DNA from: an uncultured Clostridia bacterium
Lineage (GTDB): Bacteria; Bacillota; Clostridia; Oscillospirales; Oscillospiraceae
Direction of reading: 5' to 3'
Length of the DNA: 64,000 nt
Assembly: GCA_947307255.1 (NCBI GenBank)
Contig: CAMZIO010000001.1
Span: 1 to 64,000, forward strand
The translations under genes and the position numbers were made by a program. The notes beneath the pieces were generated by a model, which was given only the letters and a program-made list of their open reading frames with translations, did not search any database and was not told the origin of the DNA. The stretch's first letter is position 1. Every line of letters begins with the position of its first letter. Shown here piece after piece: positions 39,915 to 62,347 of the stretch.

Positions 39915-39947
39915 AAAGCGCACGCCCTGCGGCGTGCGCTTTTTTTG
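39915..39947 (+). terminator. Terminator after rplL
   Basis: aaaagcgcacgcc-ctg-cggcgtgcgcttttttt. Confidence 0.85.
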
Positions 39948-39966: not shown

Positions 39967-40072
39967 TTGGCGCGGGTATGAGAGACACGAAAACGGAGAA
40001 TTCGTTTGTCAAAAAATATTTAATGATTTTCGATAAAAAATACTTGACAAACATATTGAACCGTGGTATGCT
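39967..40072 (+). repeat. Copy 1 of 106-bp direct repeat (1 mismatch to 42894-42999)
   Basis: ttggcgcgggtatgagagacacgaaaacggagaattcgtttgtcaaaaaatatttaatgattttcgataaaaaatacttgacaaacatattgAaccgtggtatgct. Confidence 0.97.
40044..40072 (+). promoter_or_regulatory. Promoter within repeat copy 1
   Basis: TTGACA - 17 bp - TATGCT; inverted repeat gtttgtcaa (40004-40012)/ttgacaaac (40044-40052) overlaps the -35. Confidence 0.65.
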
Positions 40073-40398
40073 CGGAAGCGTCCATCGACCAGCAGTTCCA
40101 GTCATTCAGGCAGGCATTTGAGAAAGCGGAAGGCATCCGCACAGGTACAGAATCTTTTCGGAATGAAGTATATGATACGGAAAAGGTAACAGTGGATGGA
40201 ACCATTCTCAAATTTTTATATTCTCAAACAGAAGGAGAACTAAAGTATCTTGTTTTGGGAGAGGATATTTTTGATGTGCTGCTGTTGGAATATAAATCCT
40301 TTGATGATTGGTTTGTTATACCGAGCGATTATAAGAAAAAAGGAGTACTGGAAATGGTCAAGATGCTGATAAAACTTGGCCCGGTCTTCGGAAAATAA
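40073..40398 (+). pseudogene. 5'-truncated ORF fragment fused to the repeat junction
   Basis: open frame FEKAEGIRTGTESFRNEVYDTEKVTVDGT...; the only nearby ATG lies inside the promoter; coding similarity starts abruptly at the repeat end. Confidence 0.45.
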
Positions 40399-40413
40399 AA
40401 AAACGTATCATGT

Positions 40414-41172
40414 TTGCGCTGTTTCAACCGCACAGAAGAGAAGGAATGCTTTATCACGACAATCTATGCTGTTCCATATGCGATGGGTTCGGCCGCGGCT
40501 TTCTTACCGCTTAAGGCACAGTTAGAAGGCTGCTATCGCCTTGTACCCTTGGAAATGGCCGGACATAGCGAGCGATGTATGGAGCCGTGTTTTTCAACGA
40601 TCCAGGAGATCGCATCTGACGCGCTGAGGCAAATCAAACGGGACCTGGAAAGAACAGACGAATATTGTCTCTTGGGCTACAGCATGGGGGCGTTGGTTTG
40701 CTATGAACTATACTATATGTTAAAGAATACTGTCGGCAGACTGCCCAAGCATATGTTCCTGATCGCATCCGGACCGCCTCATTGGGACAGAAAAATGAAG
40801 GATTACAAGGATGCGGAAAAACAGGAAATCATTGACTATATCAAACAATTAAACGGGACCGATTCGGAATTGTTGGAATGCGATGAGATGCTGGATTATT
40901 TGCTTCCAATCGCCAGAAATGATTTTTCTGCGATTTATCATTATGTTCCCACGGTATCAGACGAAAAGATAACGTGTCCGGCATGTGTTTATTACGGCAA
41001 AAACGACAATGAGATACAAAACTGTGTTTTGGAATGGTCACGGTATTTTGAAAAGAAAGTGAAATTTGTCTGTTTTAGCGGGGACCACTTCTTTATGTTT
41101 CGCAGTCAATCCTCTCTGAGAAGCGTTGCTATGGAAATCATTACAGCAATGAAAGCTGACATTGTACTATAA
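40414..41172 (+). CDS. Type II (GrsT-like) thioesterase, start uncertain
   Basis: VPYAMGSAAAFLPLK, nucleophile LLGYSMGALVCYEL, GDHFFMF His motif. Confidence 0.8.
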   Translation: MRCFNRTEEKECFITTIYAVPYAMGSAAAFLPLKAQLEGCYRLVPLEMAGHSERCMEPCFSTIQEIASDALRQIKRDLERTDEYCLLGYSMGALVCYELYYMLKNTVGRLPKHMFLIASGPPHWDRKMKDYKDAEKQEIIDYIKQLNGTDSELLECDEMLDYLLPIARNDFSAIYHYVPTVSDEKITCPACVYYGKNDNEIQNCVLEWSRYFEKKVKFVCFSGDHFFMFRSQSSLRSVAMEIITAMKADIVL

Positions 41173-41193
41173 TTTTTTGTGGAGGTATCAGAT

Positions 41194-42114
41194 ATGGGTA
41201 CAAATGTGCTTCAATTAACGAATATCAATAAACAATTTGGCACATTTCATGCGCTTACAAATGTGAATCTGAATATCGAAAAAGGGAAAATATACGGATT
41301 CATCGGAAAGAACGGGGCTGGCAAGACAACGCTCATGAGGGTTATCAGCGGAATGTCGTTCCCCACATCCGGCTCCATTGAGCTTTTTGGAAAAACGGAA
41401 ACAAAGGCTATCTGCAAAGAGCGCGAGAAGATCGGGGTCTTGCTGGAAGATCGCGGCGTTTCGCCTGATTTTACGGCAGTGCAGAACCTGAAAATGCAAA
41501 TGATCCTCAAGGGGATCCGGGATAACGCTCGCATCAAAGAAGTGCTTGAAATTGTTGGGCTGACAAATACCGGTTCCAAAAAACTAAAGGAGTTTTCCCT
41601 CGGAATGCGGAGAAGACTCACTTTAGCGGCAACGCTGCTTTCCAAGCCGGAATTTTTGATCCTTGACGAGCCCACAAATGGTCTTGACCCGGTCGGCATT
41701 AAAGATATTCGTGACTTGCTGCATAAAATCAGTCAGGAGCAGGGAACGACGATCATGATATCGAGCCATATCTTGCGGGAACTGTATGAGGTCGCAACAG
41801 ATTTTATTTTCATTGATTCCGGGGTGATTATGGGGGAAATCAGCAAAGAGCAGCTCTATAAAAAAATGGAGAGCAAGTTCATCATCCGGTCAAAGGAAAC
41901 GGGGAAGATCCTCAACACCTTTAAGGAACATGGGATGGGAGAGAAAGTCACTGTCAGTGGGGATACGATCACCATGTCCGGAAACGATACCGATGAAGAA
42001 ACGCTGAGTTCCTTGCTGCACGAGTCAGGAGCGGTGCTGCTGGAATATACGCAGACAAAGGAGACATTAGAGTCCTATTTTATCAATCTGATTGGAGGGA
42101 GACACGATGCGTAA
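41194..42114 (+). CDS. ABC transporter ATP-binding protein (BcrA/lantibiotic-immunity type)
   Basis: Walker A GKNGAGKTTLM, signature FSLGMRRRLTLAATLL, Walker B FLILDEPTNGLDP. Confidence 0.92.
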   Translation: MGTNVLQLTNINKQFGTFHALTNVNLNIEKGKIYGFIGKNGAGKTTLMRVISGMSFPTSGSIELFGKTETKAICKEREKIGVLLEDRGVSPDFTAVQNLKMQMILKGIRDNARIKEVLEIVGLTNTGSKKLKEFSLGMRRRLTLAATLLSKPEFLILDEPTNGLDPVGIKDIRDLLHKISQEQGTTIMISSHILRELYEVATDFIFIDSGVIMGEISKEQLYKKMESKFIIRSKETGKILNTFKEHGMGEKVTVSGDTITMSGNDTDEETLSSLLHESGAVLLEYTQTKETLESYFINLIGGRHDA

Positions 42115-42850
42115 ACTTGTCAGATATGATGTTTATCGTGCTTTTCATCAGGCCAGTACCTATGTTTTATTAGCAATTACACTGGTTTTGACTGTGTTCA
42201 CTGTCGGGGATGTCACGTTCTTCTCCGAGGAGCCGAGCAGCGATTTGGTATTTACCTATGTAAGTGCGTTGGCAAGCGGCAAGAATATCTTATTGATGCT
42301 GGCCGGGTGTCTGTGTGGTATGCTGATCGGAGAGGATTTTTCTGTCGGTTCTTACAGCTTAGCAGTCAGCTCAGGATACAGCAGATGGAAAATCGTTGGC
42401 GGCAGAACGATCAGCTGCTTCATCGTGATTTCTATCATGCTGGCAGAGTTTATGCTGGTTTCCTTGGCAGCCTCCATGGTTTATGTGAAAACCTTTACAG
42501 CTGGGGCTGTTCTGCGTATCATTGCCCTATCCATTCTGCATACCCTTCATTTCTGCATGATGAACATGATTTGTATCTTCATGGGCTTTGTTCTGAAGAA
42601 GAAAGTGAATGCGACTGTCGTCTGCTTGTTTATTGTTGTTCTGCTGTCCTCGCTGATCGGTACACTTTGCACAAAGGTTGAAAAGCTGACCCCGCTGTAC
42701 CTGAAAACTGTACCGGTAATCACATATACAATGTTCGGAGGAACTGAGAAAGCTCTTACCGTGGCAGGAAGCACACTGGTCTTTCTGCTCATAACCGCTG
42801 CGATTTTCTATGCGACTGGGAAGGTTTTTGAGAAGGAAGAGCTTGCGTAA
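42107..42850 (+). CDS. ABC-2 type permease
   Basis: 6 hydrophobic segments; overlaps upstream ATPase ORF. Confidence 0.85.
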   Translation: MRKLVRYDVYRAFHQASTYVLLAITLVLTVFTVGDVTFFSEEPSSDLVFTYVSALASGKNILLMLAGCLCGMLIGEDFSVGSYSLAVSSGYSRWKIVGGRTISCFIVISIMLAEFMLVSLAASMVYVKTFTAGAVLRIIALSILHTLHFCMMNMICIFMGFVLKKKVNATVVCLFIVVLLSSLIGTLCTKVEKLTPLYLKTVPVITYTMFGGTEKALTVAGSTLVFLLITAAIFYATGKVFEKEELA

Positions 42851-42893
42851 TAAACAATCATGATTTGACCCGACAGGATTGCGCGGGCGCTGA

Positions 42894-42999
42894 TTGGCGC
42901 GGGTATGAGAGACACGAAAACGGAGAATTCGTTTGTCAAAAAATATTTAATGATTTTCGATAAAAAATACTTGACAAACATATTGGACCGTGGTATGCT
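42894..42999 (+). repeat. Copy 2 of 106-bp direct repeat
   Basis: identical to 39967-40072 except G instead of A at 42986. Confidence 0.97.
42971..42999 (+). promoter_or_regulatory. Promoter within repeat copy 2, driving DUF2975-HTH
   Basis: TTGACA - 17 bp - TATGCT. Confidence 0.7.
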
Positions 43000-43029
43000 T
43001 GTACCATCAAAAGAAAGGAAGTGTTCCAC

Positions 43030-43599
43030 ATGGAAAAAATGAAAAGAATCGCAAAGGGTCTTGACGTGGTCAGTATTATCCTCTTCGTGATCCTTGCGGC
43101 GACCTTGGTGGCGCTCGCTGTCGGCGGGGTGGCGCTTTTTGCGGTGCATTTGAGATCAGAAGAATTGCTGATGCTGGAGGAAATCAGGCTCCCCGGCATC
43201 CCCGGAATCGTCGACGCGACGGTTACCGATCCTGCGGCGTTCGTTCGTTTTTGCATTGTCGGGCTGTTGCTGGGCGCCCTGTTTATGGTCGGGATGCTGT
43301 GGATTGTGCATATCATTCGCCGCATTCTCTCCCCGATGAAGGAGGGGCGGCCCTTTGCGGGCAGCGTCAGCCGCGATATCCGCACGCTGGGGTGGATTGA
43401 TCTTGGCTTTGGCGTCGTAAACATGATCATTTCGGGCGTCATGGGAGGGCTGCTGGCAAAAGCGGTGAGCGTTTCAAGCGGTTCGTACACGTTCCACTTC
43501 AGTCTGAACTTCCTGTTGATTGCGGCGGTGCTGTTCCTATTTTCTTACATTTTCCACTATGGCGAGATGCTCCAGCAGCAGGCGGACGAGACGTTGTGA
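43030..43599 (+). CDS. DUF2975 family membrane protein
   Basis: four hydrophobic segments, PMKEGRPFAGSVSRDIRTLGWIDL; followed by small HTH protein. Confidence 0.75.
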   Translation: MEKMKRIAKGLDVVSIILFVILAATLVALAVGGVALFAVHLRSEELLMLEEIRLPGIPGIVDATVTDPAAFVRFCIVGLLLGALFMVGMLWIVHIIRRILSPMKEGRPFAGSVSRDIRTLGWIDLGFGVVNMIISGVMGGLLAKAVSVSSGSYTFHFSLNFLLIAAVLFLFSYIFHYGEMLQQQADETL

Positions 43600-43614: not shown

Positions 43615-43833
43615 ATGATTATCCTTCGTTTGGACCGGGTCATGGCGGACCGCAAGATATCGCTCAACGACCTGGCGGCCCAGGTGGGCATCTCCAACGT
43701 CAATCTCTCCAACATCAAAACGGGTAAGATCAGCGCGATCCGTTTTTCCACGCTCAACGCGATCTGCCGTGTGCTGAACTGTCAGCCGGGCGATATTCTG
43801 GAATATCAGACCGACGATTCCGCCGCCGGGTGA
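43615..43833 (+). CDS. Cro/CI (YozG-like) helix-turn-helix regulator
   Basis: MIILRLDRVMADRKISLNDLAAQVGISNVNLSNIKTGKISAIRFSTLNAICRVLNCQPGDILEY. Confidence 0.93.
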   Translation: MIILRLDRVMADRKISLNDLAAQVGISNVNLSNIKTGKISAIRFSTLNAICRVLNCQPGDILEYQTDDSAAG

Positions 43834-43951: not shown

Positions 43952-44842
43952 ATGACAAGACAACGCAAGGCGGAGCTGCTGCTGATCCTCGCCACTGCCT
44001 TTTGGGGCGTGTCCTATTATTTGACCGACGTATGCTTCGCGGAGTTGGAGCCGCTGATGCTCAACGCGATCCGCTTCACCGTCGCATTCCTCGTTTTGGG
44101 TGCGGCGGTGTTGCCGCGCATTCGCAGGGCGGGGCGCGCCACGTGGCGATATAGCGTGCTCCTGGGCCTCGTGCTGACGGTGGTTTATTTGTGCGCGACT
44201 TACGGGGTAAAATATACGTCCCTGTCCAACGCCGGCTTTCTGAGCACGCTGGTCGCGGTATTTACGCCGCTTTTGCAGTGGATTGTCTACCGCAAGGTGC
44301 CGGAGCGCAAGGCGCGTATTGCACTGGCGCTGTGTGTGATCGGTCTGGCGCTGCTGTCCCTCAACGAGAAATTTTTGCCCGCCGGGGGCGATGTTCTGTG
44401 CCTGATGTGTTCGGTGTCCTACGCGGTGGATATCTTGATTATGGAGCGTGCGGTGGTGGATCCGGCGGTGGATCCGATTGCGCTGGGCGTGCTGGAGCTG
44501 GGGGTGGTAGGGCTGGCCATGCTGGGGCTTGCGCTGCTTTTCGAGCAGCCGCGCCTGCCGCGCTCCGCCCCGGTTTGGGCGGCCGCGCTGTTCCTGGCGC
44601 TGTTTTGTTCGGGTATCTCCTTTTTGATCCAGGCGTCGGAGCAGCGCTATACCTCCGCCACCCGCGTGAGTCTTATTTTCACCCTGGAGCCGGTGTTTGC
44701 CGCGCTGGTGGCGTTCTTCGTTGCGGGAGAGCGGCTGCGTCCGCGCGGCTATCTTGGCGCGGCGCTGATGCTGGCAAGTCTGTTGACGATGGAAATCGAC
44801 TGGGAAAATCTGAAAGGGGGAAAGCGCTATGACGACGTTTGA
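43952..44842 (+). CDS. EamA/DMT family transporter
   Basis: ten hydrophobic segments; LLILATAFWGVSYYLTDV; LEPVFAALVAFFVAGERL. Confidence 0.92.
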   Translation: MTRQRKAELLLILATAFWGVSYYLTDVCFAELEPLMLNAIRFTVAFLVLGAAVLPRIRRAGRATWRYSVLLGLVLTVVYLCATYGVKYTSLSNAGFLSTLVAVFTPLLQWIVYRKVPERKARIALALCVIGLALLSLNEKFLPAGGDVLCLMCSVSYAVDILIMERAVVDPAVDPIALGVLELGVVGLAMLGLALLFEQPRLPRSAPVWAAALFLALFCSGISFLIQASEQRYTSATRVSLIFTLEPVFAALVAFFVAGERLRPRGYLGAALMLASLLTMEIDWENLKGGKRYDDV

Positions 44843-45776: not shown

Positions 45777-46250
45777 CTATTCCGCACGGTTTTTCATCTG
45801 TTCGAGGGCTTGCGCCATTTTCCGGTTTTCCAGACGGTCTTTATACGACGCAATGCAAAAGCTCAAAACGAAGCATACGGAGAAGCACAGGAAAAAGCTC
45901 AGCCATGCCAGCGGCATATCGGCCGGGAACCAGCGGAAGGCGACGACGAACAGGATGATCGACACCACCGTGCCGGAAATCATGCCGACTGTCCGGGCAA
46001 CGACACCCGCATGGCGAAGGATCGTCTCGGTAAAAAATACGAAGCGCAGGCATACGATCCAGACGGACAGCAGCAGAAGCTGTGCCAGCGTGGAGAGAGA
46101 AAGCCCCCGGGAACCGAGAGAAAACAGGGTGGACACTTCCTGCGCAATATCTCCGAATAATACGGCAAAAATAAGGAATACCGCAGCGGTAAAACCGAAC
46201 AGTGCAAGCGCCTGCGTGCCATAATCAAAAAACGTCTTCTGCTTTTCCAT
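45777..46250 (-). CDS. DUF3021-like membrane protein
   Basis: four TM segments, immediately downstream of and overlapping a LytTR gene. Confidence 0.65.
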   Translation of the reverse strand: MEKQKTFFDYGTQALALFGFTAAVFLIFAVLFGDIAQEVSTLFSLGSRGLSLSTLAQLLLLSVWIVCLRFVFFTETILRHAGVVARTVGMISGTVVSIILFVVAFRWFPADMPLAWLSFFLCFSVCFVLSFCIASYKDRLENRKMAQALEQMKNRAE

Positions 46251-46690
46251 TACTTTACCCCCAGTTTTTTTCGCAGCTCGTCCGCATAGGTGCGCGAGGC
46301 GATGATTTGTTCCCCATTGTCCATGGTGATTCTGATGCGGCGGTCCAAATCGGTTTTCAGCGTTTTGATCTTCTTGAGATTTACGATACAGGACTTGCTG
46401 ACGCGGAGAAAATACCGGTCGGACAGCTTTTCCTCCAGCTCATACAGACGCAGGTCGGTTTCATATACCCCGCCCTTCGTGTACACGAAGGTCCGCCGCT
46501 CCACGGATTCCATGTACAGCGCGTCAAAGGGGTCCAGAATATGGATCGCCCCGTCTGCCCGGACGGTCAGCCGGTTTTCCAGCATACGAAGCGACGCGAT
46601 GATTTTTTCAATTTCCGGGGTCAGACGGCTGCAGGATACGGTGATTTCCGGGTCGTCCCGTTCCGGTGCAATATTGATCGTTATTTTCAT
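46250..46690 (-). CDS. LytTR DNA-binding domain protein
   Basis: ALYMESVERRTFVYTKGGVYETDLRLYELEEKLSDRYFLRVSKSCIVNLKKIKTL. Confidence 0.92.
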   Translation of the reverse strand: MKITINIAPERDDPEITVSCSRLTPEIEKIIASLRMLENRLTVRADGAIHILDPFDALYMESVERRTFVYTKGGVYETDLRLYELEEKLSDRYFLRVSKSCIVNLKKIKTLKTDLDRRIRITMDNGEQIIASRTYADELRKKLGVK

Positions 46691-46692
46691 GG

Positions 46693-47385
46693 TCATTCCA
46701 ATCCGTTCTTTTTATAAAGAATCATAAAAAGTACAAGCAGAAACAGTCCGTTGCCAAGGAGGATCAGACAGCTCCCTGCCCCTATCATACCACGTTCTGC
46801 GTCGACAAGTAAGACCTTTAGCTGCTGCGGATAGGTATACCTGGCAACGGCTTCGACCGATGCATTGAACATGGCGAGCATGGGCAGGAACGAGGTGAGC
46901 AGCATCAGCGGGACGGACAGGGAGGTCGCTGCCATCTGCGAACGGCTGGCAATGCCGACGCAGGCTCCGATCACCAGGGAGAACGGGATTCCCAACGCTG
47001 CGACGAGCAGAAAAAGAGAGGCCTGCTTTGCCGTGTAATCGTCGAAGAAAACCATGAGCAAGCTGCCGATCATGCAGCCCGTCCAGACGTAAAGGCCGAC
47101 GCCCAGAAGGTATTCGCCCGGCTTTACCCCGGCCATCAGGAGCGCGCGAAGCGTTCCCCTTTCCTTTTCCTCTGAAAGGATGCTTGTGGCGGATACCAGC
47201 GGCGCCATTCCCAGATACATCACCGCAAACAGCTCCGTAAAAAAATGCTTTGGCATAGTCTCTATCCGTACCGTGTGATTCATCAGGATCGTCATGAAGG
47301 GGAACATCAGAAACTGGATCAGAACGGTTTTGTTTTTCCAGGTATCTTTGATTTGCTTTTCCAGGACGGCAACAACGCTTCTCAT
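46693..47385 (-). CDS. ABC-2 type permease
   Basis: MRSVVAVLEKQIKDTWKNKTVLIQFLMFP; EEKERGTLRALLMAGVKPGEYLLG. Confidence 0.9.
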   Translation of the reverse strand: MRSVVAVLEKQIKDTWKNKTVLIQFLMFPFMTILMNHTVRIETMPKHFFTELFAVMYLGMAPLVSATSILSEEKERGTLRALLMAGVKPGEYLLGVGLYVWTGCMIGSLLMVFFDDYTAKQASLFLLVAALGIPFSLVIGACVGIASRSQMAATSLSVPLMLLTSFLPMLAMFNASVEAVARYTYPQQLKVLLVDAERGMIGAGSCLILLGNGLFLLVLFMILYKKNGLE

Positions 47386-47399
47386 AAGAGTTCTCCCGT

Positions 47400-48248
47400 T
47401 TATACGTTTAGTTTGTTTCCGGTCAGCGTCATAAAGACGGACTCGAGATTCGGCTCGGAGGAGTGAATGGTTTCCATGCGCCCCTGCTCGATCAGCGCGC
47501 AGATGGCCGGTGCAGAGGCCGGGTCGGCCGGAAAGGACAGCTCCGTTCCGTCTGAAAGACGGAGCGTGATCTGCCGCAGCCGGTTGTAACGCCGACACAG
47601 CTCTGCCGGCGGCCCGGACACGAGAATACGCCCTTCGTCCAGCAGCGCAATGCGATCGCACAGTTTCTCCGCCTCCGTCATGTCGTGCGTGGTGAGGAAT
47701 ACGGTAACGCCGCGCTTTTTCTGCGCTGCGATCATGGCGTGAATCTCCTCCGCAGCGGCGGGATCCAGTCCGCTGGTCGGCTCGTCCAGAAATATGAGTT
47801 GGGGGCTGGTCAGGAACGCGCGGGCAAGCCGAAGGCGGCTTTTCATGCCCTTTGACAGCTTTCCGGCCGGTATTTTCGCACAGTCGGACAGGCCGACGGC
47901 TTCCAGCGTTTTTTGGATCGCGCTGCGGTCGATGCCGTGCAGCGCGGCAAAGACCTTCAGATTGTCGAAGCAGGACAAGCGCTCGTAAACGCCGAATTCA
48001 TCCATCATGATCCCGACGCCGCGCCGCTGGGATATCGTCAGTGCTTCCGACCGTGTGGCAAAGAGAGCGGCCGATCCGCTCGTGGGTGCGAGCTGCCCGG
48101 TCAGTATTTTGATCAGAGTGGTTTTCCCGGAGCCGGAGGGGCCCAGCAGTCCGAAAATCTCACCCTGCGGGATGGAGAAGCTGACGTCGCGCAGTACGGT
48201 ATGCGCGCAAAACGCTTTTTCAATATGCTCGGCAGAGACCGCGATCAT
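47400..48248 (-). CDS. ABC transporter ATP-binding protein
   Basis: GPSGSGKTTLIK, LSKGMKSRLRLARAFL, LIFLDEPTSGLDP. Confidence 0.95.
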   Translation of the reverse strand: MIAVSAEHIEKAFCAHTVLRDVSFSIPQGEIFGLLGPSGSGKTTLIKILTGQLAPTSGSAALFATRSEALTISQRRGVGIMMDEFGVYERLSCFDNLKVFAALHGIDRSAIQKTLEAVGLSDCAKIPAGKLSKGMKSRLRLARAFLTSPQLIFLDEPTSGLDPAAAEEIHAMIAAQKKRGVTVFLTTHDMTEAEKLCDRIALLDEGRILVSGPPAELCRRYNRLRQITLRLSDGTELSFPADPASAPAICALIEQGRMETIHSSEPNLESVFMTLTGNKLNV

Positions 48249-53710: not shown

Positions 53711-56700
53711 ATGAGTATGACAAAAAACCGACTTCACAAGGCGCTGAGTCTGTTTCTCGCCCTGGTGATGTGCGTGAGCCTGATCCCCTGGGAGATCACG
53801 GCACGCGCGGCGAGCGCGCTCTCCCCCGTCGCAGCGGGGCTGGAGGCGGTCCGCGACTACCAGGACGGGCAGCAGGCCGGAAAAGCCTCGAACTATTATG
53901 AGTATGTCTATTACGGCGGCCTGCAATGGCGCGTGCTGGACGGCGAGGCCGATTCCGGCAACGGCACGGGTATGCTGCTGCTGAGCGAAAAAGCGCTTGG
54001 CGATGTGTTCCCGATGCACGCCCACTATTACGGCATTTACCCCGGTTCTAAGGATTACAATTCTACGACCAAGGGCTATTTGGCCCTTGACGTGCGCAAG
54101 TATCTTACGGGGCAGGGGACCTATACGCCGTTCCAGACCTGCCGCGCGATCAATGATAAAGAACTGTATCCTGCAGAATGGAAGAATAGCAATTATTACC
54201 GCAGCGTTATTGCGGACGACCCCAATAACGCAAACGACGAATTCGACCATGGCCCGCAGCCCGGCGTTCAGTATTACGTCATCGACCAGGAGAACTATAT
54301 TGAGGAAACCGAGACGCTCACTGACGAAACGTTTGCGCTCGGCGCTTACTATACCAAGGACAGCGGAAATACCGACCCTGAGAATACCTTCGTTCCCGGG
54401 ACGACCTATTATTACGACGCCTCGACGTATAAGGAGTGGGATTCTGCCGGGAAGGACAAGTTTGACTCCGGACAGGTCTATTATCGCTTCTATCTGTATA
54501 CGGAAGATAATCTCAACACCTACGGCTTTGTGCCCATTATGGGCACCCGGTATTATAACGGATACCGGAAAGGCTATACCACGGGCGTCATCAGCGGACG
54601 CTCTGCCGCCCACGAGAACTTTGCCAATGATTACGGTATTTCCAACGCGGAACAGGCCGCCGTGCTTCCGGCCACCAAGTCGGGTGTCCCCGCGCACAAG
54701 ATAACTGCTGAAACAACATATAGCAGCCCGCTGGATGACGACACCTACTTCCTGCTCTCTGCGGAGGAGGGCTTCAGCCCCGAGTATGGCTTTGGGGTAA
54801 AGGGAAACAGAATAGCCAAAACAACCGGCGGATCGGCTAGACCGTGGATGCTGCGCACCGCCTACAGGGATTATTTATATGTTGGCGCAATGAGCTCCAG
54901 TGGTACGTTAGCCAGGATCAAGGGCAACGCTCCTTCATCGCGCCTTCGCCCCGCCTTCTATCTCAACCCTGCGGCGGTGCTCTTCGTGTCTGAGGCCGGC
55001 ACGGGCGGCAAAGCGGGCGCCACAAGCAGCACCTTCAGCGCCTTTGCCTCCGCCGCCACCCAGAGATGGAAGCTGACGCTGCGCGACAGCACGCTTTCGG
55101 TTGATGCCTCGGCCGCGGCGGTGAACGGGAACACCGTTGACGTGGATTACAGCGGCGCCAGCGCCACGGGTGAGAACGTTTGGCTCTCCGCCATCGTAAC
55201 CGACGGCGCGGGCAAGCAGATCTACGGCTACACCAAGCTGGAAAAGATCGACGTCCCCGGCAAACAGGCCGGCCGGACGCAGTTGACCCTGCCCACGGCT
55301 TTGGTGAACGGCGTGGAAACCCAGCTTACGCCGGATAACTGCCGGATTCAGGTCTTTTTGGAGCGCTGCGGCGGCGCGCAGGAGACGGACTACGCCTCCA
55401 AGCCGGTGGTGCTCAACGTGCCGCAATGTGAAAACGCGGAGCACGTCTGGTCCGAATGGGAGCTTCCGGAGGAAGTCTCCTGCACCGAGGGCTACACGAA
55501 AACCCGCTATTGCCTGTTTTGCGGCACGGAGGAGAGCGAGACCGTAGCCCCTGCCGGCCACGATCCGGTCTGCCACGTTCAGGTGAACGCCAAGTGTGAG
55601 GACGGCGAGTGCGGCATAGGGGAGTATTGGGAGTGCACGGTCTGCGGCCGCCTGTTCAAGGACGCGGCCTGCACCGAGGAAGTTGCGAACTTGAGCGCGC
55701 TGGTGATTTATCCTACCCACGAGACAGTAAAAGAGTACCACGTGGCCAGCGATCCGCACTTCCATTATGCAAGTAAAGTGTGTGTCAATTGCGGCAACAC
55801 GATTGAAGTAAACAACGGCCGCACCAAGTGGTCGGTACATACGGGCGTTACCTGCGCCGAGGGCGGCGTGTGCACCACCTGCGGCGCGGAGGTCCCCGCC
55901 GGACATGCCATCAATACGATTAACAGCACTTCCCTGATCCGTTATTCCGTGGCGCCCACCTGTACTGAGCCCGGAGTGGGCGTATACAGATGCCTGCTGT
56001 GCGGCGAAGAGGTGGACGGAATAGAAGTCCCCGAGCTGGGCCATATGTGGAGCGGCCGCGTCAAGGTCAGAACGGAGACCTACGATCTGGACGGTCTGAA
56101 CTACCGTTACTGCACGCGCTGCGGCGAGACGGATATCACCGAGGTTCCGCTCAATCGCCTGCCCGCTACCATCGTGATCACCGGTCCGGAGAGCTTCGTC
56201 AACGAGACGGGCGCGCCGGTAACGGCGACGCCCGATGACAGCGGCACCTTCCGCTTCGACCACTACGCCGTGGATGAAAGAGGCGCCACGACCGAGGCCA
56301 CCGGCCTGCTGCCCGAGGGCGTGAACTACAACGCCACGATCCGCTGGTACAAGCACGAGGCAACCGGCGCGCGCTATGAGTGGGATCATGCGCCCAGCAC
56401 GCCGGGCACCTATTCGCTGGGGATCAGCGCGTCCATCGCCAACACCACCGAGGTGGACGACAACGGCAACCCCGTGCACAGCTATCTCGCCACGGAGGAG
56501 GTTTTCTTCGACTTCGAGATCCTCGCCCCCTCCGGCGAAAACCTTATCACCGCCTTTGAAGTCCCCGGACAGGTCGGTGAATCCGCGATCAACCACGGAC
56601 AGGGCACCATCGTCTTTACCATGCCCTATAACACGAGCGATGAGGATATGAGAGCCCTTGCGCCGAGCACGGTGAGCGTATCGGATAACGCCACGCTCAT

Positions 56701-59700
56701 CGAACCGGCCGATCCCGAAACCGCGCGCGACTATTTCAACAGCCCCAGCGGCGTGAAGTACGTGGTGCGCGCGCAGGACGGCTCGGAGAAGACCTACTGG
56801 GTCAGCGCGGTGCGCGAGTCCGCAGACCGCACGGTTTCCTTTGAAACCTACGGCGGCTCCACGCACAGAAGCCGCCCCGTTACCATCGGGGAAACCTACG
56901 GCGGCGAGCAGGATTCCGAAGGCTACGACCACGCGCTGCCCGTGCCCACGAAGGAGGGCTTTGTCTTCGAGGGCTGGTATCTGGAGGACGGCGAGCAGCC
57001 CGGCACGGTGTTTGCCACGCTGATCGACAACGACAGCGTCGTTACCGTAACGACGGACCACACGCTCTACGCCAAGTGGAGAGAGCTCAAGACCATCGTC
57101 CCCGTCGGCACGAACGTGGAGTATGACTACGACGGCAATCCGCATCCCTATTTCCCCAAGGCCCAGATTTACGGCACGGATCCCGCGGAGTACGTGGAAG
57201 CTGACGCCGATACGATGAACGGCTTTGTGGTAACGTATACGGATGCGTCGGGACAGACCACCGACACCGCGCCCAGCGCGGTCGGCGTCTACGACGTAAC
57301 CTATACGCGTGCCGCGGACGACGTGTATCGGGCGATGACCCCGGACGGCACCGCGAAGCTGACCATTAAGTACAGCCATTATTACACCGTAACCTATCAG
57401 GACGGCCTGGACGGTGATGTCTTTGAGGATCAGGTCTTCACGGACGTTGCGCCCGACAGCCCCACGCCGCCCTTTGACGGCGAGATCCCCCCGCGCGAGG
57501 GGTACGTTTTCGCGGGCTGGCAGCCGGAGGTCGCGGCGACCGTAACGGCGGACGCCACCTACGTCGCCCAGTGGAAGGCTGACGACAACGGCGACGGCGT
57601 TGCCGACGAGCGGCAGGTCTTCGTGGAATACGTTTCCGCGGATGAGACCAAGGGCACCGTTACCGGCGAAACAGAGGTATTTACGGCGGAGGAAGGCGAA
57701 TCCTGGGTAACGGTCAGGACGACCGCCGAGGGTGTTACCGCAACGCCCAAGACCGGGTATCAGCTTGAAAACTGGACCAACAGCGAAAACGACAATACCA
57801 ACACGACCGGCGCATTTGCGTTCGGCGCGGTTCACGTCGGCACGACGATCACGGTTACCGCAAATTGGAGCCGTGCGGCCCAGACCCTCACGCCCGTGAG
57901 CGAGGAGCAGACGCGCATCTACGACGGCACGCCCAAGCACTACCTGCCCAAGGCGTCGGTCGACCGCAGCAATCCCGTGGAGTACGTCCAGGCGAGCGAG
58001 GATGACGCCAACGGTTTCCGCGTGGAGTACAAGGGTGCGAACGATGCGGCGTATACGACCACCGCGCCTTCTGCCATCGGCACGTATTCGGTGCGCTTCA
58101 GCCGGAGCGCGGATAACACGTATGCCGCCATGGACGGCGGCACCGGCACGCTGGTGATTGAGGCGGGAACGCACTATACCGTTACGTACAGCGACGGCGA
58201 GAACAACGCGGTCTTCCCGGAGCAGAAGTACGAGGATCTGAATCCCGACAGCCCCACGCCGCCCTTTGACGGCGAGATCCCCCCGCGCGAGGGGTACGTT
58301 TTCGCGGGCTGGCAGCCGGAGGTCGCGGCGACCGTAACGGCGGACGCCACCTACGTCGCCCAGTGGAAGGCTGACGACAACGGCGACGGCATTGCCGACG
58401 ATTGCCAGATCTTCGTGGAATACGTTTCCGCGGATGAGACCAAGGGTACCGTTACCGGCGCGACGGAGGTGTTCTCCGGCGAGAAGAACGGCGATGTCAT
58501 TGAAGTGGTTACCACGGCAAGAGACGTAACGGCCACCCCGGCGGAGGGTTACGTCCTTGACTGCTGGACCAACAGCAAGAACAACGATACCAGCGCCGAC
58601 GGTAGATTTGATCTGGGCCTGATCCGGGCAGCCGGCCAGACCATCACGGTTACCGCCCAGTGGACGGCGGATGAAAACAACGACGGTACGCCCGACGAGT
58701 ATCAGGTCTTCGTGCAGTACGTTTCCGAGAGCGACGACAAGGGGACGGTTACCCCGGTGAACGCTGCGGAAGTCTATACGGCCGCGATGAATGAGGACGG
58801 CAGCTATAAGACCGTCGTCAATCTGACGACCGCGGGCGCTGCGGCGCAGGCCGGAAGCCATTACGCCTTTGATCGCTTTACGAACAGCTTTGACGGACAG
58901 ACCGACTATGACGACGGCGTGTTCAAGCTGATGAACGTGCCAGTTGGAACGACGGTTACCGTTACGGCACATTTCAGCCAGGACAGCAACAACGACGGTA
59001 CGCCCGACGAGTATCAGGTCTTCGTCCAGTACGTTTCCGAGAGCGACGACAAGGGGACGGTTACCCCGGTGAACGCTGCGGAAGTCTATACGGCCGCGAT
59101 GAATGAGGACGGCAGCTATAAGACCGTCGTCAATCTGACGACCGCGGGCGCTGCGGCGCAGGCCGGAAGCCATTACGCCTTTGATCGCTTTACGAACAGC
59201 TTTGACGGACAGACCGACTATGACGACGGCGTGTTCAAGCTGATGAACGTGCCAGTTGGAACGACGGTTACCGTTACGGCACATTTCAGCCAGGACAGCA
59301 ACAACGACGGTACGCCCGACCGGTATCAGGTCTTCGTGCAGTACGTTTCCGAGAGCACGGCCAAGGGTACCGTCAGCGGCAATACCGAGCAGGTGTTCTC
59401 CGCCGAGCAGAAGGAAGACGGCAGCTATGAAGCGTATGCGGACGTGAATACCCAGGCGGTAACCGCCACCGGCAAGGACGGCTATGCTCTGGATCGCTTC
59501 ACCAACGACTACAACAGCACCGTCAGTATGGACGGCGTCCTTAACCTCGCGTCCGTGCCGGTCGGCAGAACGATTACGGTTACGGCCCGCTTTGCCGCGG
59601 ATCAGTACGGTCCGGACGGCGAGACCGGCGACGGCATTGCCGACAAGTATCAGGTGATCGTCCTCTACGAGGTCGACGCGCCCGATCAGGGCAAGATCGT

Positions 59701-62347
59701 TGACGGCGCACGCACGGCGGAGGCATTTACCGCAGATAAGAAGGATGACGGAACCTACAAGGACGTTGCAACCTTTACCACCTCCGGCTCTGAGGCCGAG
59801 CCTCTGGATCCGGCGGCTGCGGCGCTTCAGTATTGGTATACCAGCAACGACAGCCAGCGCAACGGCAACGGCAGATTCACCATGATGGCCGAGACCGGCA
59901 CCACCGTGAGGGTGATCGCCAAGTTTGCAGAGGATTCCTTCGGGCCCGATACTGACGGCGACGGGAACCCTGATCCCAACGGTGTCCCTGACGTGTGCGA
60001 GGCCTTTGTCCAGTACGTAGCCGGTGTGGGCGGAACGCTGGAAGGCAACCCCTTCTACACCTTCTCCAAGAAGACCGACGGCCTGTACGAGACTGCGGTT
60101 ACCGTGGATATGAACGCGGCGGATCCTGCGGTCAACGTTACGCCCGTGGCCAACAGCGGCTACGTCTTCGTCAACTTCACCTGCGACGCTTCTGCCAATC
60201 CCAGCGATGACGGATTGTTCAACCTGGGGTTGCAGGAGACCAACCAGACCATCACCATCACGGCAAACTTTGCTGAAGATAAGAACGGCGATGGGATCCC
60301 CGATACCCGCCAGGTGCTGATCCAGTACGTTACCGACGGCAACGGCGCACTGGTGGATGAGGACGACGTGTATGACGCCTTCAATGCCAAGACCTACAAC
60401 GGTGGGACCGGCATTGCCGACCAGGTGGACAACGTGGTTTCCAAGGGACGTGCGGTAGAGGCCAATCCCAAGATGGCTCTGGACAAGTGGACCGAGGACT
60501 ATACCGAAACGGAGAGCTGGACCGGGATCATCGACTTCGGCTCTGTGGACGTCGGCACGCTCATTACGCTCACTGCGGTCTTTGCGCCGGATGAGAACGA
60601 GGACGACGTACCCGACAAGTATCAGGTCCTGATCCACTACGTCATGGATGACGTCGATCACGGAACGGTGGCAGGCGCGGAATACGAAGCCATTTATGAG
60701 CGCGATCCGGAGACGCTGGATTACGCACAGACCGTGGCGGTTACCACCTCCGGCAATACGGTTACACCCAAGACCGGCTGGGCTTTGGATTACTGGACGA
60801 ACGACGTCAATGACGACACCGATTACGAAGGCGTGTTCGAGCTGGGTATGCAGGAGGTTGGCCGGACCATTACGCTTACGGCAGTGATGGCGGAGGACGT
60901 GGACGGCGACAATACGCCCGATAAGTACCAGGTGCTGATCCAGTACGTTTCTTCGGATGAAACGAAGGGCGAGATCACCGGAGCGACCTATGAATCCTTT
61001 ACCGCTGATAAGACCGCCGACGGCAGCTATGCAAGCTACGTGTCGAACGTAAGATCCAGCGGCACGCAGGTTCAGAGCGCGGCGGGCTATGCGGTTGACA
61101 AGTGGACGGAGGACTATAACCAGCCCAATACCAGCAACGACAACGGCCGCTTTAACTTCGGAACGGTGGAGACCGGAACGGTGATTACCATTACGGTTAG
61201 CTTTGATGAGGATGACGACCAGAGCGGGATCCCCGACAAGTATGAACTGACCGTTACCTACAAGATTGTCAACGGCAAGTGGGCCAACGGCTCGGATCGT
61301 ATGGATTGCACGCTGGTAAAGCTGGACAGAAACGGCAATCGGGATGCAAATGGCACGGCGGTTCTGGGCAATACGCTGCCCACGTCGCGTGAGATCGTTC
61401 CCGACAGAGGATATCAGAAGTCCGGCACGTGGAATCCGAGCGCTACCGCGCGGACGGCTGTGAGCGAAGACACCGTATTTACGCTGACGCTCAAGAAAGC
61501 CGAGTCCGTTACGCCGATCACGACGGCTTACACGCTGTGCTATGAGTCCAATGGCGGCACGGAGTATCCGGATGAGAGATACAGCGCCGGCACGCTGGTC
61601 AGACTGAACAAGCGCCCCGTGAGAGAAGGGTATACCTTCAACGGCTGGTATGCGGACGCAGCGCTGACGGAACCCATTACCGAGATTATCATGAACGGAG
61701 ACCGGATGGTTTACGCCGGCTGGACGCAGACGGGAACGGGCTCCGGCACCACGCCCGCAGGCAACACCGACTGTCCGAGAGACAATACCTGCCCGCTGGC
61801 CCCGTTCAAGGATCTTGATATGCACGCCTGGTACCACGACGGTATCCACTATTGCCTGGAGAAGCACCTGATGGAAGGTGTCGGCAACGGATACTTCCAG
61901 CCCAGCGGAAACGTCAGCCGTGCGCAGATCGTTACGATCCTCTGGCGTATGGAGGGCAAACCGGCGGCCGGCAAGAACGTCTTTACGGACGTCGTAAAGG
62001 GCAGCTGGTATGATGCGGCTGTGGCATGGGCTGCAGGGAACGGAATCGTTGAGGGCTATGGCAACGGCAAGTTTGGCCCCAACGACAGCATCACGCGCGA
62101 GCAGTTCGCTGCGATCCTGTATCGCTACGCGGCGTTCAAGGGCTATGACATCAGCAAGCAGGCCAATCTGGGCGCCTATGCAGACGCAAAGGAGATCAGC
62201 AGTTGGGCGGCTTCGGCAATGGGCTGGGCCAATGCGAACGGCTTGATCACCGGCGTTACGACGCGCACGCTTGAGCCGCGCGGTACGGCTACACGCGCGC
62301 AGGCTGCGGCGATCATTCAGCGCTTCTGCCAGAATCTGGCAAAGTGA
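53711..62347 (+). CDS. Giant secreted SLH-domain multi-repeat surface protein (~2878 aa)
   Basis: signal peptide LHKALSLFLALVMCVSLIPWEITARA; DUF6273-like N-terminal domain (YGGLQWRVLDGEADSGNGTGMLLLSEKALG...RLRPAFYLNPAAVLFVSE); CxxC array; YDG/MBG-like and InlB-like repeats; ~11 D-x-N-x-D-G-x-P-D units; three C-terminal SLH domains. Confidence 0.92.
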   Translation: MSMTKNRLHKALSLFLALVMCVSLIPWEITARAASALSPVAAGLEAVRDYQDGQQAGKASNYYEYVYYGGLQWRVLDGEADSGNGTGMLLLSEKALGDVFPMHAHYYGIYPGSKDYNSTTKGYLALDVRKYLTGQGTYTPFQTCRAINDKELYPAEWKNSNYYRSVIADDPNNANDEFDHGPQPGVQYYVIDQENYIEETETLTDETFALGAYYTKDSGNTDPENTFVPGTTYYYDASTYKEWDSAGKDKFDSGQVYYRFYLYTEDNLNTYGFVPIMGTRYYNGYRKGYTTGVISGRSAAHENFANDYGISNAEQAAVLPATKSGVPAHKITAETTYSSPLDDDTYFLLSAEEGFSPEYGFGVKGNRIAKTTGGSARPWMLRTAYRDYLYVGAMSSSGTLARIKGNAPSSRLRPAFYLNPAAVLFVSEAGTGGKAGATSSTFSAFASAATQRWKLTLRDSTLSVDASAAAVNGNTVDVDYSGASATGENVWLSAIVTDGAGKQIYGYTKLEKIDVPGKQAGRTQLTLPTALVNGVETQLTPDNCRIQVFLERCGGAQETDYASKPVVLNVPQCENAEHVWSEWELPEEVSCTEGYTKTRYCLFCGTEESETVAPAGHDPVCHVQVNAKCEDGECGIGEYWECTVCGRLFKDAACTEEVANLSALVIYPTHETVKEYHVASDPHFHYASKVCVNCGNTIEVNNGRTKWSVHTGVTCAEGGVCTTCGAEVPAGHAINTINSTSLIRYSVAPTCTEPGVGVYRCLLCGEEVDGIEVPELGHMWSGRVKVRTETYDLDGLNYRYCTRCGETDITEVPLNRLPATIVITGPESFVNETGAPVTATPDDSGTFRFDHYAVDERGATTEATGLLPEGVNYNATIRWYKHEATGARYEWDHAPSTPGTYSLGISASIANTTEVDDNGNPVHSYLATEEVFFDFEILAPSGENLITAFEVPGQVGESAINHGQGTIVFTMPYNTSDEDMRALAPSTVSVSDNATLIEPADPETARDYFNSPSGVKYVVRAQDGSEKTYWVSAVRESADRTVSFETYGGSTHRSRPVTIGETYGGEQDSEGYDHALPVPTKEGFVFEGWYLEDGEQPGTVFATLIDNDSVVTVTTDHTLYAKWRELKTIVPVGTNVEYDYDGNPHPYFPKAQIYGTDPAEYVEADADTMNGFVVTYTDASGQTTDTAPSAVGVYDVTYTRAADDVYRAMTPDGTAKLTIKYSHYYTVTYQDGLDGDVFEDQVFTDVAPDSPTPPFDGEIPPREGYVFAGWQPEVAATVTADATYVAQWKADDNGDGVADERQVFVEYVSADETKGTVTGETEVFTAEEGESWVTVRTTAEGVTATPKTGYQLENWTNSENDNTNTTGAFAFGAVHVGTTITVTANWSRAAQTLTPVSEEQTRIYDGTPKHYLPKASVDRSNPVEYVQASEDDANGFRVEYKGANDAAYTTTAPSAIGTYSVRFSRSADNTYAAMDGGTGTLVIEAGTHYTVTYSDGENNAVFPEQKYEDLNPDSPTPPFDGEIPPREGYVFAGWQPEVAATVTADATYVAQWKADDNGDGIADDCQIFVEYVSADETKGTVTGATEVFSGEKNGDVIEVVTTARDVTATPAEGYVLDCWTNSKNNDTSADGRFDLGLIRAAGQTITVTAQWTADENNDGTPDEYQVFVQYVSESDDKGTVTPVNAAEVYTAAMNEDGSYKTVVNLTTAGAAAQAGSHYAFDRFTNSFDGQTDYDDGVFKLMNVPVGTTVTVTAHFSQDSNNDGTPDEYQVFVQYVSESDDKGTVTPVNAAEVYTAAMNEDGSYKTVVNLTTAGAAAQAGSHYAFDRFTNSFDGQTDYDDGVFKLMNVPVGTTVTVTAHFSQDSNNDGTPDRYQVFVQYVSESTAKGTVSGNTEQVFSAEQKEDGSYEAYADVNTQAVTATGKDGYALDRFTNDYNSTVSMDGVLNLASVPVGRTITVTARFAADQYGPDGETGDGIADKYQVIVLYEVDAPDQGKIVDGARTAEAFTADKKDDGTYKDVATFTTSGSEAEPLDPAAAALQYWYTSNDSQRNGNGRFTMMAETGTTVRVIAKFAEDSFGPDTDGDGNPDPNGVPDVCEAFVQYVAGVGGTLEGNPFYTFSKKTDGLYETAVTVDMNAADPAVNVTPVANSGYVFVNFTCDASANPSDDGLFNLGLQETNQTITITANFAEDKNGDGIPDTRQVLIQYVTDGNGALVDEDDVYDAFNAKTYNGGTGIADQVDNVVSKGRAVEANPKMALDKWTEDYTETESWTGIIDFGSVDVGTLITLTAVFAPDENEDDVPDKYQVLIHYVMDDVDHGTVAGAEYEAIYERDPETLDYAQTVAVTTSGNTVTPKTGWALDYWTNDVNDDTDYEGVFELGMQEVGRTITLTAVMAEDVDGDNTPDKYQVLIQYVSSDETKGEITGATYESFTADKTADGSYASYVSNVRSSGTQVQSAAGYAVDKWTEDYNQPNTSNDNGRFNFGTVETGTVITITVSFDEDDDQSGIPDKYELTVTYKIVNGKWANGSDRMDCTLVKLDRNGNRDANGTAVLGNTLPTSREIVPDRGYQKSGTWNPSATARTAVSEDTVFTLTLKKAESVTPITTAYTLCYESNGGTEYPDERYSAGTLVRLNKRPVREGYTFNGWYADAALTEPITEIIMNGDRMVYAGWTQTGTGSGTTPAGNTDCPRDNTCPLAPFKDLDMHAWYHDGIHYCLEKHLMEGVGNGYFQPSGNVSRAQIVTILWRMEGKPAAGKNVFTDVVKGSWYDAAVAWAAGNGIVEGYGNGKFGPNDSITREQFAAILYRYAAFKGYDISKQANLGAYADAKEISSWAASAMGWANANGLITGVTTRTLEPRGTATRAQAAAIIQRFCQNLAK
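58676..59299 (+). repeat. Near-identical tandem duplication, 2 x 312 bp, inside SLH gene
   Basis: 58676-58987 and 58988-59299 encode the same 104 aa; only a silent-type/adjacent base differences seen (e.g. ttcgtGcag vs ttcgtCcag). Confidence 0.92.

Follow-up and report, generated by a model that had tools for sequence, protein, structure and literature searches.

What placed a short, AT-rich group of genes between the ribosomal protein gene rplL and the operon encoding a DUF2975 membrane protein and an HTH_26 regulator, and what does this arrangement imply for the expression of these genes? The question was analyzed in a 64-kb stretch of DNA, hereafter the window. The group, referred to as the cassette, is bounded by a direct repeat of 106 bp, located at 39967..40072 (left copy, + strand) and 42894..42999 (right copy, + strand). 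As a preliminary description of the locus had reported, the two copies carry a single mismatch, an A at 40059 versus a G at 42986, and are thus identical at 105 of 106 positions. A repeat search over 30-50 kb of the window (20 kb) extends the alignment from 106 to 114 bp at 97%, and yielded no other direct repeat of at least 25 bp. Beyond the repeat the left flanks of the two copies differ; about 13 bp of degenerate similarity continue leftward with an indel (p ~0.01), which would fit, weakly, a right copy whose upstream part is derived from the donor.

The number of copies was determined on the genome to which the window belongs (G000), a draft of 1.66 Mb in 61 contigs that is 86% complete. 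In the search of these 1.66 Mb the repeat was counted twice, both times at this locus, and the cassette DNA between the repeats was present in single copy. A dispersed repeat is ruled out by this count, and the preliminary description's reservation that the sequence might be a common dispersed element does not apply. Among the 401 genomes of the same family that were searched, no other full-length copy of the 106-bp repeat was found.

At its core, the repeat consists of a conserved promoter/operator, that of the DUF2975-HTH_26 operon located downstream. Both copies contain a 19-bp operator dyad. In the left copy the dyad TTTAATGATTTTCGATAAA (40019..40037, +) is located within a larger inverted pair TTTGTCAA...TTGACAAA (40005-40051), and in the right copy the dyad is found at 42946..42964 (+). 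A -35 box (TTGACA) and an extended -10 box (TATGCT) come after it, at 40044..40072 (+) and 42971..42999 (+) respectively. A complete promoter is therefore kept in both copies of the window (TTGACA-17-TATGCT, with TG ahead of the -10 box), and in the left copy the repeat and the -10 box end on the same base. The right-hand 60 bp of the repeat have many partial matches in the 401 family genomes, several of which stop exactly at the last base of the repeat. When the 20 best operator matches in other genomes were inspected, 17 had an HTH_26 gene nearby, in several cases with a recognisable DUF2975 gene in between. Compared side by side, the matches have in common a TTTAAYGATTATCRTTAAA-type dyad followed by TTGACAAAC and the -10 box.

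The dyad was also looked for, allowing up to 3 mismatches in 19, in the DNA upstream of the 29 best DUF2975 homologues, obtained by a protein search (26-43% protein identity). It was present, followed by a -35 box of the TTGACAAAC type, upstream of 28 of these 29 homologues, which do not amount to 28 independent cases because the homologues are related, and which were scanned with a degenerate pattern derived from operators partly belonging to the same genomes; in shuffled controls it was never present (0/29). The commonest spacing between dyad and start codon in the 29 homologous operons is 84 bp (about ten cases), the same as in the window (42946 to 43030). Since dyad and -35 box occupy a conserved place before the DUF2975 homologues and the promoter is complete in both copies, the repeat core can be identified with the promoter/operator of this operon, in agreement with the site proposed in the preliminary description. 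It follows that the right copy, whose dyad is 84 bp upstream of the DUF2975 start, is the native one and that the left copy is a duplicate, now fronting the cassette. Compared with the preliminary description, this identity of the repeat core is the new element, and it provides both a polarity and a likely functional consequence.

Three further sites were noted in the course of these comparisons. The same dyad and promoter precede a MacB-like ABC transporter with no HTH_26 gene nearby (L094 4997-5200, G676:C52), perhaps another gene of the regulon. The own genome contains a second AT-rich operon composed of a membrane protein and an HTH_26 protein (L070 3400-4200, G000:C44), the HTH being 79% identical to that of the window; a dyad-like site with 2 mismatches is located upstream of it (C44:4278-4296). 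A candidate for a second operator duplication, in genome G550 (L174 3310-5827, G550:C9), corresponds instead to an unrelated 1.3-kb tandem duplication, 93% identical, with a strong TTGACA promoter.

The cassette contains four ORFs. The leftmost one (40075..40398, +, 107 codons) is truncated at its 5' end. It is a remnant, open up to the repeat and as far as the -10 box, in which no start codon with a ribosome-binding site is evident after the promoter, and it has no match in Pfam, NCBIfam, PDB, 291 genomes of the class or plasmids. The second (40414..41172, start approximate, +) encodes a type II (NRPS/PKS) thioesterase with a GYSMG motif (PF00975, E 6e-27, 95.7 bits for a cut-off of 26.4), the closest solved relatives of which are PDB 5ugz, surfactin TEII and RifR. 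The third encodes an ABC transporter ATPase (41194..42114, +; PF00005, E 5e-33), nearest to lantibiotic-protection ATPases with 210.7 bits for TIGR03740, which is below the curated cut-off of 309.75. The fourth, whose start overlaps the stop of the ATPase, encodes an ABC-2 type permease (42107..42850, +; PF12679, 25.8 bits, slightly under the cut-off of 27.2). The exporter could confer protection from a peptide antibiotic, or could serve for the export of some other product. The NRPS condensation domain (PF00668) has no match in the own genome (86% complete) and no synthetase is present beside the thioesterase; the latter looks like an orphan because of this lack of a condensation domain.

A profile search recognised no transposase or integrase among the four ORFs, as the preliminary description had stated. 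An IS or transposon was rejected on this ground, and because a direct repeat of 106 bp is far too long for a target duplication. An integrase-dependent element with att sites was likewise discarded, none of the four ORFs being a tyrosine or serine recombinase. An anti-phage system was considered and rejected too, PADLOC yielding only partial matches to the ATPase domain.

Several observations concern the origin of the cassette. The GC content of the DNA between the repeats (40073-42893) is 44.6%, compared to 60.3% for the 64-kb window taken as reference for composition; the AT-richness mentioned in the preliminary description is thus confirmed by computation. Among all 2.8-kb stretches of the 64 kb, the one with the lowest GC falls on the cassette (minimum 0.440, median 0.613). 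The same tendency is visible in GC3, which is 0.41-0.56 for the cassette genes, 0.70-0.82 for the L11-L12 ribosomal genes and 0.72-0.77 for the DUF2975 and HTH genes. Within the family, only 3 of 201 genomes have the thioesterase, and very weak matches to the permease are found in 7 of 251, the own genome being included in both counts. Because of this deviant composition and of the near-absence of thioesterase and permease from the family, the cassette is, on sequence grounds, foreign DNA. The relatives searched are devoid of the cassette, which disposes of the other reservation of the preliminary description, namely a cassette carried by every relative.

As to the donor, the full gene set was found nowhere else in the searches made. 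No close relative of the thioesterase or of the ABC ATPase was present in 85,000 species genomes, and plasmids, phages, viral contigs and class-level genomes gave no donor. The ATPase/permease pair and the truncated ORF are absent from the neighbourhoods of ten thioesterase relatives. The likeliest source would be a secondary-metabolite cluster, with its type II thioesterase and exporter, from a member of the Bacillota with a lower GC content. On plasmids, the ATPase has its best relatives in Enterococcus, Staphylococcus and Ruminococcus (40-44% identity), which agree only loosely with such a source.

The flanks of the locus were compared with those of relatives. The left flank is rplL (L7/L12; 39528..39896, +), whose DNA is 84-89% identical to that of most congeners searched; a terminator-like hairpin of rplL is read from the sequence at 39915-39942, with a T run to 39946. 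To the right, the DUF2975 membrane protein (43030..43599, +) matches PF11188 with E 0.005 and 17.1 bits, below the gathering cut-off of 27. A homologue is present in 35 other family genomes, and relatives at 26-43% identity have the same operon order. The HTH_26 (Cro/C1-type) regulator of 72 aa follows (43615..43833, +; PF13443, E 2e-24), and then the EamA transporter that marks the right flank (43952..44842, +). In two congeners, G005 and G013, EamA is found about 150 bp after rplL, with neither the cassette nor the DUF2975-HTH pair between them. Judging from this gene order, pair and cassette are extra relative to G005 and G013; the absence of the pair may reflect a loss in these two genomes rather than a gain here. 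In the comparison with sister genomes suggested in the preliminary description, relatives without the cassette exist, and a search covering one genome per species revealed no "empty" allele in which rplL and DUF2975 are separated by a single repeat copy.

The region following rplL is variable in the genus (L050-L066), where either EamA directly or several differing gene sets are observed, and it is possibly prone to insertion. Further to the right, the window contains a second, unrelated ABC-2 exporter operon (45777-48248, -), of GC slightly below its surroundings, whose ATPase and permease are accompanied by a LytTR regulator and a small membrane-type protein, and a giant cell-surface protein of 2,878 aa (53711-62347, +) with C-terminal S-layer homology domains and Listeria-Bacteroides-type repeats.

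Three features make up the footprint to be explained: a foreign fragment, a near-perfect copy of the resident promoter and, at the -10 box, a single abrupt edge that falls within a gene. We consider it probable that a foreign fragment was added at the promoter of the DUF2975-HTH_26 operon, between rplL and eamA, with the result that the promoter is now on both sides and the cassette is under a captured promoter. The event is an ordinary horizontal acquisition accompanied by promoter duplication, and the 105/106 identity of the promoter copies points to a recent date. The fragment, which most likely derives from a secondary-metabolite cluster, would have joined the chromosome at this promoter: on its right side by homologous recombination in the promoter or the operon, on its left side by non-homologous joining at the -10 box. 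That the extra promoter copy arose by additive integration of this kind is put forward tentatively, as plausible but short of probable.

The preliminary description had suggested a Campbell-type integration, i.e. the entry of a circle with the cassette and one promoter copy by a single crossover in the promoter. This would leave exactly such a footprint, with long near-identical direct repeats and no recombinase genes, and RecA excision between the repeats would be possible in principle. The circle would have to bring its own, nearly identical version of the 106 bp, which implies a donor from the same species or a very close one, whereas the full-length repeat is present in no other family genome searched and the cassette has no plasmid, phage or viral relative among those found. 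The foreign origin, the absence of mobility genes and the promoter site of that earlier interpretation stand; its integration by crossover is possible only, neither the circle nor the one-copy allele having been found, and we regard it as somewhat unlikely. The symmetrical duplication, the abrupt edge within a gene and the lack of mobility genes would also result from insertion at a 106-base staggered double-strand break filled in on both sides, equivalent to a very long target-site duplication, or from a tandem duplication of the promoter followed by insertion between the copies. These routes are unlikely: they do not predict the weak extra similarity to the left of the repeats and they require end-joining at the exact edge of the promoter.

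A further unlikely scenario is the arrival of promoter, cassette, promoter, DUF2975 and HTH_26 as one 4-kb islet that already had two operators. Cassette and DUF2975-HTH pair are indeed both missing between rplL and eamA in G005 and G013, and the DUF2975 search lists 8 genomes of the genus, all without a significant homologue. However, the GC3 of the cassette (0.41-0.56) differs sharply from that of DUF2975/HTH (0.72-0.77), only a few of 35 loci inspected have a match to the ABC ATPase close to such an operon, and the 105/106 identity of the promoters implies recent copying anyway. As the draft genome is fragmented (61 contigs), an assembly effect was also considered, where a single promoter would be present on the chromosome (the empty allele) and the cassette, likewise with one promoter, would belong to a circle, an array or another strain, threaded in via the shared repeat. 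To the left of the mismatch the two copies share 92 bp without any difference, too long a stretch for short k-mers to assign rplL to one particular copy. Yet each right-hand context is linked to its own version of the mismatch within 13 bp, and the left contexts differ too, which indicates two real contexts on each side and leaves the assembly effect improbable.

The addition of a foreign fragment at the resident promoter would probably have a regulatory consequence. The position of the dyad in homologous operons suggests that the HTH_26 protein is its likely reader. By binding the dyad, this protein would also control the thioesterase and ABC genes, a case of promoter capture. As the cassette is behind a duplicate of the promoter of the regulator's operon, the newcomer genes are probably under the control of the regulator; if HTH_26 does bind the dyad, the operon of the regulator and the genes for thioesterase, ATPase and permease are under common regulation. 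A more general scenario is very improbable, in which HTH_26 operon promoters would be recurrent landing or capture sites, exporter cassettes joining the regulon in one step behind a duplicate operator, and the cassette might also be a 2.9-kb circle leaving and re-entering at the operator. As a clean example, apparently of recent date, of foreign genes placed behind a copied resident promoter, the locus bears on the expression and control of acquired genes. As a by-product, it provides a well-conserved operator for DUF2975-HTH_26 operons, which makes the target of the regulator directly testable; DUF2975 is barely mentioned in the open literature searched.

No close precedent of promoter capture, or of repeat-flanked thioesterase-ABC cassettes, was found in the literature searched, and the locus can be compared with several known systems. 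The cassette has the same protein families as the type II thioesterase and exporter of NRPS clusters, but it is without an adjacent synthetase in a genome without a condensation domain match. It resembles the small genomic islets devoid of mobility genes, in that a few foreign genes of deviant GC occupy a variable intergenic region, here after rplL; it differs from them in being bounded by a duplicated resident promoter and not by tRNA, att or IS ends. Additive integration with tandem duplication has been described in transformation (interchromatid integration), with duplications of ~100-900 kb between repeats (PMC3784515), and so has homology-facilitated illegitimate recombination (PMC3240628), related outcomes being reported for transformation and conjugation. 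The one-sided homology anchor, the duplicated resident sequence and the lack of an own recombinase are common to these events and to the present locus, whereas the known cases are laboratory events and here only a 106-bp promoter is doubled, in an event inferred from one genome. Lastly, the DUF2975-HTH_26 operon is similar to autoregulated small HTH operons by its conserved dyad and promoter ahead of the operon, with the difference that the operator is present twice here, and that foreign genes are found behind the extra copy.
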